DNA of 32,960 nucleotides from an uncultured Clostridium sp. (GTDB lineage: Bacteria; Bacillota; Clostridia; TANB77; CAG-508), in contig CANPDB010000017.1 in NCBI GenBank assembly GCA_947572725.1, positions 1 to 32,960 of the forward strand, written 5' to 3'. The notes below the pieces were generated by a model. That model saw nothing but the letters and a program-made list of their open reading frames with translations, did no database searches and was not told the DNA's origin. A program made the position numbers and the translations under genes. How positions within the stretch are numbered: the first letter of the stretch is position 1; the number at the start of each line of letters is the position of its first letter. Positions 5,052-29,658 of the stretch are shown piece by piece.

Positions 5052-5295
5052 CGTTATAATTCACAGCCTTATTTCAAATAATATATTAGTTTGATTTTTA
5101 AGTTATTTACTCGCTCCCAAAGGATGATAATTATATATTTTTTCACTGCCCCATCCTAAAAATTCTAAAGAAAAGTTTAAAAACTTTTCTAAGAATTTTT
5201 GGACGGTCACCCCGGAGTCGTTCAAAAAGTATATAATTATCACCCTTTTCGCGCTATTTTTAGTTAATATAATTAAACTAATATATTATTTGAAA
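5052..5295 (-). repeat. Nested hairpin element A1 (family A core)
   Basis: The spacer 4810-5359 contains this element and otherwise only promoter-like AT-rich DNA. A perfect 21-bp inverted repeat (5072-5092 with 5275-5295) encloses a family A core at 5108-5264. Read on the minus strand, the core has AGCGCG at its left base, a stem around ATAATTATATA, the loop motif GGGGTGACC, an apical stem GAAAAGTTT/AAACTTTTC, GGATGGGGCAGT and GGGAGCGAGTA. Left of the outer arm, 5052-5066 matches the end motif CGTTATAATTCACAG of the element at 8173-8413, but no matching right end is present. The orientation is set by likeness to the copies at 9986, 17755 and 28187. Confidence 0.75.
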
Positions 5296-5359
5296 TTTTC
5301 ACTATATATAATGTAATACTTCCATGTATAAAATAATATAAATTATACAGGTGATTTAA

Positions 5360-8172: not shown

Positions 8173-8413
8173 GTAATTATTCGTTATAATTCACAGTCAT
8201 ATTTAAAATAGTAGAATAGCTAAAGAGTTATAATATATTATTTTTTAGAAATGAATGTGGGGACCAACAAGTTACAGTATGTAAGTAAAATTTGAGGAGC
8301 AACTGCACCGCAGAAGTTTATCTACATACTGTTAGCAGTTGGGAATGGATAAAAAATAATATATTATAACTCTTTAGCAAATATAAATAAGCTGTGAACT
8401 GTAACAATTATTC
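8173..8413 (+). repeat. Long hairpin element B1 between tuf and plsX
   Basis: The spacer 8067-8522 holds the plsX promoter, this element and the tuf terminator. The outer ends are GTTATAATTCACAG and CTGTGAACTGTAAC. Inside, GCTAAAGAG followed by TTATAATATATTA pairs with the mirror sequence ending in CTCTTTAGC. The core carries GTGGGGACC, the helix CCAAC/GTTGG, a 10-bp stem ACAGTATGTA/TACATACTGT, and GGGAATGG. The GTGGGGACC...GAATGG layout is like family A, but the basal AGCGCG/GAGCGAG motifs are missing. The left 65 bases differ by one base from 21107-21171. Confidence 0.75.
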
Positions 8414-9947: not shown

Positions 9948-9985
9948 GTGTTTTACATTTATTTCTAAGTATAATTTTTATAAAT

Positions 9986-10127
9986 TACTGTTCATTTTTT
10001 ACTAGCGCGAAGTTCTATATATATTAATATTTTAAAGTCAAAGACTTATAGGTAGACCCCAGCTATGTTTTTGACAAGAAAATATTAATATATATAGAAC
10101 TGGGAGCTAATAAATATTTAACAGTAG
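9986..10127 (+). repeat. Hairpin element A2 (family A core) behind fusA
   Basis: The outer arms TACTGTT and AACAGTA enclose ACTAGCGCGAAG on the left and GGGAGCTAATAAATA on the right, the base motifs of family A. The main stem AGTTCTATATATATTAATAT is a near-perfect inverted repeat. The inner loop (10033-10072) is shorter than in the other copies and carries GACCCCAGC rather than GGGGTGACC, so this copy is divergent. It starts six bases after the fusA stop codon on the minus strand, and its core orientation is antisense to fusA. Confidence 0.7.
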
Positions 10128-10133
10128 CTTTTC

Positions 10134-17733: not shown

Positions 17734-17754
17734 TTCAAACTCTCCATTCTAAAA

Positions 17755-18003
17755 GGTTGCCACTGGTTCCGGGTTTAAATGGCAACTTATATTTTAAGAT
17801 ATCTACTCGCTCACAAAAGTTTATAATTATATATTTTTTTTACTGCCCCACTCTAAAAATCCTAACAAAATTCATACTGAATTTTGAGGATTTTTGAATG
17901 GTCACCCCAGAATCATAAAAAATATATAATTATAGAACTTTCTAGCGCTATTTATAGTACTTAATAAGAAAGTTGCCATTTAAACCCGGAACCAGTGGCA
18001 ACC
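17755..18003 (-). repeat. Nested hairpin element A3: 34-bp perfect arms around a family A core
   Basis: Perfect 34-bp inverted repeats at 17755-17788 and 17970-18003 frame a family A core at 17801-17960. Each arm also contains its own GTTGCCA/TGGCAAC palindrome around CCGGAACC-type loops. Read on the minus strand the core shows AATAGCGC, a stem with ATAATTATATATTTTTT, GGGGTGACC, the helix CCATTC/GAGTGG, the apical stem AAAATTCA/TGAATTTT, GGGGCAGT and GAGCGAGTA. It fills the spacer between the helicase stop (18009) and trmFO. Confidence 0.85.
17970..18003 (-). terminator. Possible terminator of the SNF2 helicase gene
   Basis: The right arm of element A3 folds on the minus strand as GTTGCCA/TGGCAAC and is followed by TTTCTTATT, six bases after the helicase stop. 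The T-run is interrupted, so termination may be partial and trmFO may be read through the whole element. Confidence 0.45.
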
Positions 18004-18008
18004 CAATT

Positions 18009-21105: not shown

Positions 21106-21199
21106 GTAATTATTCGTTACAATTCACAGTCATATTTAAAATAGTAGAATAGCTAAAGAGTTATAATATAAATAAGCTGTGAATTGTAACAATTATTCA
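21106..21199. repeat. Hairpin element B2, arms without a core
   Basis: Left arm identical to that of B1 (8173-8237) over 65 bases but for one change. Right end CTGTGAATTGTAAC mirrors GTTACAATTCACAG perfectly. The 148 bases between two ATATA repeats in B1 (8233-8237 and 8381-8385) are missing, so B2 looks like a B1-type element that lost its core. The rest of the spacer 21033-21294 is the helicase promoter and the terminator of the next gene. Confidence 0.85.
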
Positions 21200-28170: not shown

Positions 28171-28186
28171 ATTAATTCCTTTCTGC

Positions 28187-28382
28187 TACAGTTCGATTAC
28201 AATTACTTTAAATAGCGCGAAGAAGTTTATATTTCAATATTTTGAAGTGAAATTGTGGGGACCGTTCAAAAATCCTCAAAAGTTCTATGAACTTTTGTTA
28301 GGATTTTTAGAATGGGGATAACGGAAAAATATTTAAATATAAACTTATGGGAGCGAGTAAATAATTTTTTGTTGAACTGTAC
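28187..28382 (+). repeat. Hairpin element A4 (family A core) between yfmF and yfmH
   Basis: Outer arms TACAGTTC/GAACTGTA (28187-28194 with 28374-28381). The core 28205-28363 reads AATAGCGCGAAG, stem AAGTTTATATTT, GTGGGGACC, helix CCGTTC (28262-28267) with GAATGG (28310-28315), CAAAAATCC, apical stem AAAAGTTC/GAACTTTT, GGATTTTTAG, GGGGATAA, the return stem, and GGGAGCGAGTAAATA. It begins five bases after the yfmF stop and its core orientation is antisense to yfmF and yfmH. Confidence 0.85.
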
Positions 28383-28386
28383 ACCT

Positions 28387-29658
28387 TTAATCTTTTAAAA
28401 AATAGATTGTATTAATACTAACTTTATTAGCAATATCTATAATGTTTTCTTTTGTTATTTTATTAACTTTTTCAATATATTCATCAATTGATACCTCTTC
28501 TTGTGATAATTCTTGAGAAAAATAATAACTTATTTGTGTATCTTGCTCGTCTTTAATCGTTTTGATTGTAGCTATAATCCCTTTTTTTACATTATCAATT
28601 TCTTGTTCTGTAAAATCTCCTTTTTTCATATTGTCAATTTGTTCTCTTATTAATTCTAAAGCTTTTTCATAATTTTCAATATCAATTCCACAATTTATAA
28701 ATATATTTCCTTTATGTCGTAAATAACTTGAACTTGCAACATATGCTAGGTTTGCTTTTTCTCTTACGTTTTGGAATAACTTTGAGTTTGCTGTTCCGCC
28801 TAATATGCTATTATATAATAATGTATCATATCGTAAAGCTGCATTTTCAAGATTAACATCTAATCCTAAAATTAATTTTCCTTGTGATACATTCATTGAT
28901 TCTGTAATAACATTTTCTTCTTTATTCTGCTGTTTTTCTGTGATTTTTGGTATATTATATTTTGGTTCTCTTTCTTTTAGTTTCTCTATACTTTCATTTA
29001 ATTTAACAAAATCTATAATTTGTTCATCAATAATTCCAGATACGAATATATCAATTTTACAATTATTAATTAGTTCTTGATAATATTGATATAAATTTTT
29101 ACCATCTATTTTTTTTAAATCTTCTATATATCCAAATTTATATAATCCATATGGCTCGTCTTTGTACATTTCTTCAATACATCTATCTACTGCATATCTT
29201 GCTTTATTATCTATTTTACCTTCAATTCTATTCTTTATATTGTTTTTTTCTTGTTCAACATACTCTTCTTTAAAGCCATCATTTTCAATATATGGATTAA
29301 AAATAATTTCTAATATTCTTTCTAACGAATTTTTTAAGATATCTTCACTGTTTCTTGGTAAAAAATTGTCATTTATAGTTTCAATATAAAACTTAAGTAC
29401 TTGATTATCTGCCATTTTGTCTAGTCCACAGTCAAAACTTGCTCCATACATATCTTCCATTTGCTTACTAATTTCTTCTTGTGAAGTCATATTTTTGCTT
29501 CCTCTTCTTAAGATAGTTGAAATTAGTGCATTTTTAGTTACATTTTCTCTGTTTAATTCTGTTGTCAAAAATATTGCTATTAAATTTGTTTTGAATTTGT
29601 CTGTTTTTATCATATGCAAATTAATACCTTTTTTTATTTCTTTTTTAATATTATTCAT
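28387..29658 (-). CDS. yfmF: M16 family protein lacking the zinc site, YfmF type
   Basis: Partner subunit of the M16 pair, 423 residues from this start. It has the M16 fold text (NALISTILRRGSKNMTSQEEISKQMEDMYGA, QGKLILGLDV, NSKLFQNVREKANLAYVASSS) but no HxxEH, as usual for the non-catalytic half. GGAGGG lies 6-8 bases before the ATG at 29658. The ATG nine codons further upstream (29685) is rejected because it lies in front of that site and inside the palindrome at 29680. Confidence 0.88.
   Translation of the reverse strand: MNNIKKEIKKGINLHMIKTDKFKTNLIAIFLTTELNRENVTKNALISTILRRGSKNMTSQEEISKQMEDMYGASFDCGLDKMADNQVLKFYIETINDNFLPRNSEDILKNSLERILEIIFNPYIENDGFKEEYVEQEKNNIKNRIEGKIDNKARYAVDRCIEEMYKDEPYGLYKFGYIEDLKKIDGKNLYQYYQELINNCKIDIFVSGIIDEQIIDFVKLNESIEKLKEREPKYNIPKITEKQQNKEENVITESMNVSQGKLILGLDVNLENAALRYDTLLYNSILGGTANSKLFQNVREKANLAYVASSSYLRHKGNIFINCGIDIENYEKALELIREQIDNMKKGDFTEQEIDNVKKGIIATIKTIKDEQDTQISYYFSQELSQEEVSIDEYIEKVNKITKENIIDIANKVSINTIYFLKD

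Follow-up and report, generated by a model that had tools for sequence, protein, structure and literature searches.

Family A hairpins of a Clostridia genome as probable MITEs with IS66-type ends

Several kinds of short, dispersed repeats that form hairpins and show MITE features have been described in bacteria. In Streptococcus pneumoniae these include BOX, RUP and SPRITE, BOX having a modular build (PMC3049150). MITEPye1 of Paracoccus yeei is described as a non-autonomous, mostly intergenic element with direct repeats, a long stem-loop and IS-like ends (PMC11578231). A term search of a review of prokaryotic MITEs finds no mention of IS66 (PMC10969869); two published elements of the IS66 family, ISPpa5a and ISPpa7, are reported with 8-bp repeats (PMC3281130). 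A separate body of work concerns hairpins that are kept paired by copying at the level of DNA: template switching homogenises the two arms and inverts the loops, and loop inversion is presented as its mark (PMC8794818), with arm homogenisation and loop inversion by the same process also described elsewhere (PMC8604942).

The window, that is the whole stretch of 32,960 nucleotides analysed here, is contig C17 of a draft genome (G000) of 1.955 Mb in 95 contigs, 88% complete. An earlier note, made from its letters alone, had drawn attention to four spacer elements, A1 to A4, collectively family A, and read them as copies of a covarying structured RNA. We consider it most likely, with a probability of about 0.88, that family A consists of gene-less MITEs moved in trans by IS66-family transposases. 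The terminal ends, the target-site duplications, the copy number, the intergenic placement, the empty sites at the A4 locus and the IS66 elements with matching ends are all directly observed. That an IS66 transposase supplied in trans is the mover is the step that we infer.

Four elements of the window

Family A elements share a common plan: nearly the whole element forms one hairpin, broken by short internal-loop modules, and these modules (loop 1 together with one of several apices) recur in varied combinations. Where both ends can be placed, an element measures about 145-200 bp, with a terminal inverted repeat (TIR) as its boundary and an 8-bp duplication beside it. Direct reading finds A1 to A4 at the places given by the earlier note, with every motif that it quoted. 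A4 reaches slightly beyond the limits assigned to it (Table 1). Its proposed fold is well supported: the energy of -43.9 kcal/mol compares with a mean of -25.97 for shuffled versions (z -5.18), and none of 200 shuffles folds as well. A4 overlaps no ORF of at least 80 aa. The place of A2 in the family holds in part: it has the outer loop in common with the others, while the rest differs and its apex is another module, one that recurs at a locus (L315) in another genome of the genus. A2 lies between the genes for EF-G and EF-Tu.

Table 1. Positions of family A elements, their parts and related MITEs in the window
Feature	Position	Strand	Details
A1, class I' copy	5075..5296	-	core 5108-5256 with paired outer arms; approximate limits
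Additional MITE in the same TIR group	8183..8405	+	loop 2-like module; duplication AATTATTC, 8/8
A2, class III copy	9984..10128	+	loop 1 plus apex AGGTAGACCC..AGCTATG
A2, ends and flanks			ends ATTACTGTTCA / GCTACTGTTAA; flanks TTTTATAA / TTTTCTTA, 6/8 equal
A3, class I' copy	17754..18004	-	core 17804-17950; limits approximate; outermost arms a mirrored TTGCCA..TGGCAA repeat
75-bp MITE	21116..21190	+	duplication AATTATTC, 8/8
A4, left flank	28177..28184		TCCTTTCT
A4, complete MITE copy, class I (loop 1 + loop 2)	28185..28383	+	199 bp
A4, left terminal inverted repeat	28185..28195	+	GCTACAGTTCG; consensus GTTACAGTTCA, 2 mismatches
A4, loop 1, left side	28213..28222	+	TAGCGCGAAG
A4, loop 2, left side	28254..28263	+	TGTGGGGACC
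A4, loop 2, right side	28313..28323	+	TGGGGATAACG
A4, loop 1, right side	28349..28359	+	GGGAGCGAGTA
A4, right terminal inverted repeat	28373..28383	-	TGTACAGTTCA reading inward, 2 mismatches
A4, right flank	28384-28391		CCTTTAAT; 4/8 bases equal to left flank

In A1 and A3 we found no clear TIR or duplication. The flanks of A4 are possibly a decayed target-site duplication, weak when taken alone. In A3, as at loci L073, L165, L096 and L166, mirrored TTGCCA..TGGCAA or GGGGACGG-type repeats take the place of the usual end, an arrangement that would result if a different repeat were copied to each arm.

The window also holds two further MITEs, at 8183 and 21116, the shorter of which looks like an internal-deletion derivative of the longer type. 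The two carry identical duplication letters 13 kb apart, and their outer flanks diverge past the first few bases; chance, target preference or a common history may explain this identity.

Ends, copies and genomic placement

When the outer arms are compared across genomes a common end emerges, GTTACAGTTCAG, the terminal repeat of the family being GTTACARTTCA. Where this end is kept it lies at a near-constant distance from loop 1, as a rule 28 and 25 bases, and direct 8-bp repeats sit immediately outside it. Only 36 distinct elements among the 183 extracted keep both ends (at most three mismatches), and this, together with the lack of clear ends in A1 and A3 and the weak duplication of A4, is among the evidence that counts against the MITE reading. 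In those 36 the two flanks agree at a mean of 5.0 of 8 positions and eight pairs are perfect, as against a mean of 3.03, a maximum of 3.81 and at most three perfect pairs in 5000 shuffles. Taking end pairs at any spacing from 40 to 500 bp, 31 of 260 have a matching duplication, defined as 8/8 or as 7/8 with at most two end mismatches; some of the searched loci were chosen because they contain the end, a selection that inflates the number of pairs and leaves the share with a duplication unaffected. The corresponding count for nine control motifs (eight shuffled, one reversed) is 0 of 304. The pairs with a duplication range in size from 47 to 474 bp, and family A is thus one branch of a larger MITE group. 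Ten of these end-pair examples were folded: most form a single near-full-length hairpin, and one (L176) has a wide unpaired stretch. Within the window's own genome the end occurs 35 and 34 times at up to two mismatches, as against 4 and 4 for the reversed control. The exact 15-base end GTTACARTTCACAGY is present in 49 of 191 genomes of the order, belonging to 15 of 39 genera, and its reversed control in none.

The family is large and dispersed, and it also occurs in related genomes. A DNA search with A4 returned at least 61 rows in its own genome (40 of 185 candidates scored), made up of A4 itself, at least 39 further places on the same strand, and a remainder of palindromes read in reverse or fragments. 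A covariance model built from 36 copies returned at least 126 rows over both strands of the same genome (150 of 3638 candidates scored), many of them the same palindrome read in reverse; under stricter filters it has members in 20 of 55 genomes including the window's own, all of the window's genus. Motif anchoring, by which elements were extracted, gave 82 loop 1 rows in this genome, representing 81 places (L110 appears twice) and excluding both A4, which is filed under L258, and A3, which missed the motif cut-off. These comprise 42 class I, 22 class II and one class III row (A2), with 17 left over that are mostly of class I' (the A1 type) and include one short deletion copy. Two loci are of unusual build: one of the pair L039:1450-1702 and L110:1453-1658 has about 100 bp of extra insertion in its apex, and the other is preceded by a second left side of loop 1, which looks like the insertion of one element into another.

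In genome contigs the loop 2 pattern occurs in at least 87 stretches, and the titles of the 80 matches listed are those of Clostridia, Eubacteriales, Clostridiaceae or Clostridium MAGs. The same pattern, the only one searched in this way, has no match in viral contigs, and a phage origin is rejected to that extent. A comparison with Rfam, proposed by the earlier note, gave nothing at gathering score, either for the window as a whole or for four further loci; the five sub-threshold matches are all to eukaryotic or viral families. That note had counted an exact match to a described MITE family as a refutation of its reading; no such match was found, yet the ends and target-site duplications are those of MITEs. 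A non-exhaustive literature search, by title and start of abstract, found no paper on family A or on IS66-derived MITEs. Family A is hence new to the sources searched, and the kind of element is already known.

The A4 spacer separates two co-oriented genes on the minus strand that encode M16 peptidase domains. A search with this gene pair gives a match, weak in a few cases, in all 58 genomes of the genus, the window's own among them. In the 19 best-matching relatives, whose spacers were read, the M16 genes are adjacent and the element is absent in every case, a result that concerns the A4 site alone; the spacers there measure about 15 to about 130 bases, some with other sequence. In one relative (L265) the spacer holds a different repeat-like sequence of GTCCCCTTCGACA type, and it may therefore take more than one repeat family.

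Across the genome 81 of the 82 loop 1 rows lie outside ORFs of at least 90 aa, although the loci are 79% coding, and one copy lies within an ORF. With respect to neighbouring genes 36 rows are antisense, 20 sense, 14 divergent and 9 convergent, with two at contig edges. The earlier statement that the element is not a plain leader of the adjoining genes is upheld by this mixture, and a cis-regulatory RNA leader, which would sit upstream of genes in a fixed orientation, is rejected on this ground.

IS66 elements with matching ends

The link to IS66 comes from elements that combine such ends with a transposase gene. At locus L322, in another genome of the order, the end GTTACTATTCAGAC, an ORF of 501 aa and a mirrored end follow one another, with GAATTATT on either side as an 8/8 duplication. 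The encoded protein matches the IS66-family transposase domain PF03050 of Pfam (2.9e-23), and its sole NCBIfam match is to IS66 (1.3e-40), at 139.7 bits against a model cut-off of 180 bits and hence below it. Matches to this protein are present in 23 of the 191 genomes, the genome of L322 itself included. In all, seven IS66 elements have matching ends and 8/8 duplications: the ORF is intact in five (L338, which is the same as L322, L339, L340, L341 and L343) and broken in two (L344, L361). A further one, L342, has these ends but no matching duplication, and the remaining loci of the IS66 search are mostly fragments with no recognised end pair. The correspondence with the MITEs can be close: the MITE end in L133 and the IS end in L341 are the same over 18 of 18 bases. 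The IS66 elements found here have a single ORF, a layout we take to be ISBst12-like, after the sub-group of that name.

Little beyond the ends is common to the MITEs and these elements, since neither the loop 2 motifs nor a full loop 1 was found in the IS66 elements examined; L338 has a lone AGCGAGTA near its left end. Four of them (L339, L340, L341 and L361) have a hairpin-like AGTGTTACAGACTTTTTT stretch near one end, a possible internal terminator. At L325 the end is of the other type, GTTACAATTCACAG, and is followed by an IS66-type ORF directed at the edge of the contig.

The window's draft genome yielded no IS66 transposase, with 8 of 13 candidates scored; for a fragmented draft this is weak evidence, yet it counts against the proposed mover, and mobilisation in trans is therefore put no more firmly than as most likely.

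Stem covariation, loop 2 and comparison with known systems

The alternative that survives best, though we regard it as improbable, is that family A is a structured RNA, either a regulator or a processing site, with a fold that is selected, loops that bind a protein or ligand and a mobile element as its carrier. The covariation on which the earlier note had based its RNA reading is real and strong: 98.2% of 1719 cells are paired and 17 of 48 pairs show change on both sides. The covariation score is 0.193, where shuffles give 0.072 +/- 0.005 and slid partners never exceed 0.057, and a weaker measure, the number of further pair types, gives 34 against 30.7, a value that 19 of 500 shuffles reach. 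In the stems of the alignment labelled A1, both bases depart from the commonest pair in 119 cells that remain Watson-Crick, as against one-sided mismatches of 10 G-T, 6 A-C and 17 other.

The same note had argued that the odd pairs are G-U on one strand and would be A-C on the other, as expected of selection on an RNA. This is correct for the helices that it quoted and fails for the family, whose stems have no excess of G-U over A-C; the covariation has a form that would be uncommon in an RNA. We counted mismatches in 121 of 128 extracted elements (seven with arms shorter than 15 nt were dropped), a set in which overlapping loci may show some places twice. The inner stem has 2587 Watson-Crick cells with 8 G-T, 6 A-C and 33 other, near the 2:2:8 ratio for no preference; the outer arms have 65 G-T, 50 A-C and 289 other, and the apical stem 25, 50 and 231. 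On this mismatch spectrum we reject the G-U pairs as a sign of selection on the RNA of one strand.

The apical loops, for their part, occur in inverted forms. Among three-base loops TAT (15) and ATA (8) are exact reverse complements, beside AAA (5) and GTA (2); among five-base loops the same is true of TGAAA (5) and TTTCA (1), beside TGTAA (2) and TGCAA (1). In one copy (L009) the right side of loop 1 is altered toward the complement of the left. The mismatch spectrum, the loop inversions and L009 together make the stem covariation fit template switching, by which a change in one arm would be copied to its partner, and we infer that much of it arose by such DNA copying, although related copies do not represent independent events.

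A different picture is presented by a 2-bp helix within loop 2, which unpaired bases part from both long stems and which, being isolated from the long arms, is poorly explained by arm copying. It takes the forms GT/AC, AC/GT, GC/GC and AT/AT, with a wobble form GC/GT in three copies of the window's genome and one in relatives. Parsing reduced 62 rows to 55 in the window's genome, where the helix is paired in 44 (5000 shuffles: mean 33.1, maximum 42), and 94 rows to 87 in relatives, where it is paired in 73 (mean 46.4, maximum 56); the pairing thus exceeds all shuffles in both sets. These counts are low rather than high, as the unpaired rows include seven copies of the 8183 type, with its different loop layout, and misreadings of the left side. 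G-U cells outnumber A-C cells 4 to 0 in the window's genome and are outnumbered 2 to 6 in relatives, and the pair types track clades, so that independent changes may be few. On this modest evidence, selection on the loop 2 fold is suggested.

The recurrence of loop 1 and the apices on unrelated stems likewise favours a structured RNA. Against it stand the unfixed orientation to genes, the lack of an Rfam match and the conservation of the loops, which in the window's genome is not significantly higher than that of the stems (p 0.28, 0.34); across species such conservation is partly built in, because the relatives were found via loop patterns or the family model. It is conceivable, though improbable, that the loop modules are parts of folded RNA or single-stranded DNA with a function of their own, kept by selection and passed cassette-like between MITE lineages while stems and ends turn over. 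If so, loop 2 and the covarying helix inside it would form a motif that binds a protein or ligand, with a transposon as its carrier.

Considerably less probable is a generator of palindromes that involves no transposon, in which fold-back copying of the DNA at hand gives every site new arms. This would account for arms that vary between copies and pair near-perfectly for up to 77 and 100 bp (L082, L096), and for the mirrored TTGCCA repeats of A3, L073 and L165, but many arms within the genome form subfamilies with a common TIR end, and the 8-bp repeats beside the TIR are direct and not inverted; both features disfavour it as the sole origin of the arms.

Very improbable are REPIN-like elements, mobilised as single-stranded hairpins by a RAYT (Y1) transposase. 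In favour of this reading, the copies are hairpins and 45 of 55 genomes, including the window's own with two, have Y1_Tnp matches. But no family A element lies beside any of 20 Y1_Tnp genes examined in 13 genomes, two such loci having one stray single-mismatch motif each; Y1 matches also occur in genus members that the model finds element-free (e.g. G002, G003, G005), and Y1 enzymes are not known to make terminal repeats with an 8-bp duplication. The gene flanks and the target-site duplications lead us to reject it. Two RAYT-like Y1_Tnp genes, at G000:C7:15858-16187 and C61:2815-3147 (L238, L239), have no family A neighbours.

As probable IS66-moved MITEs, the family A copies illustrate how a hairpin transposon can mimic an RNA gene: its stems change on both sides, its copies number in the tens, and it is found in more than one species. 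A covariation screen could pick out such a family, yet the pattern of its mismatches and the inverted loops point to copying of DNA from arm to arm; the loop 2 helix offers a test case for telling selection on a fold from such copying.

Among known systems the IS66 elements are alike in their GTTACTNTTCAGAC-type terminal repeat, 8-bp target duplication and host order, and unlike in that the MITEs have no ORF. BOX, RUP and SPRITE belong to another host and are described with no link to IS66 (PMC3049150); for family A, by comparison, an IS family with matching ends is identified and the apices are interchangeable. MITEPye1 differs in being of IS1182 type and in having one to three chromosomal copies, and its description includes no covarying family (PMC11578231). 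The hairpins maintained by template switching show the same simultaneous compensatory changes and loop inversion but are those of rRNA and microRNA genes (PMC8794818), whereas family A is a transposable element of bacteria, present in tens of copies in a single genome. To these systems family A adds a MITE group with IS66-type ends.
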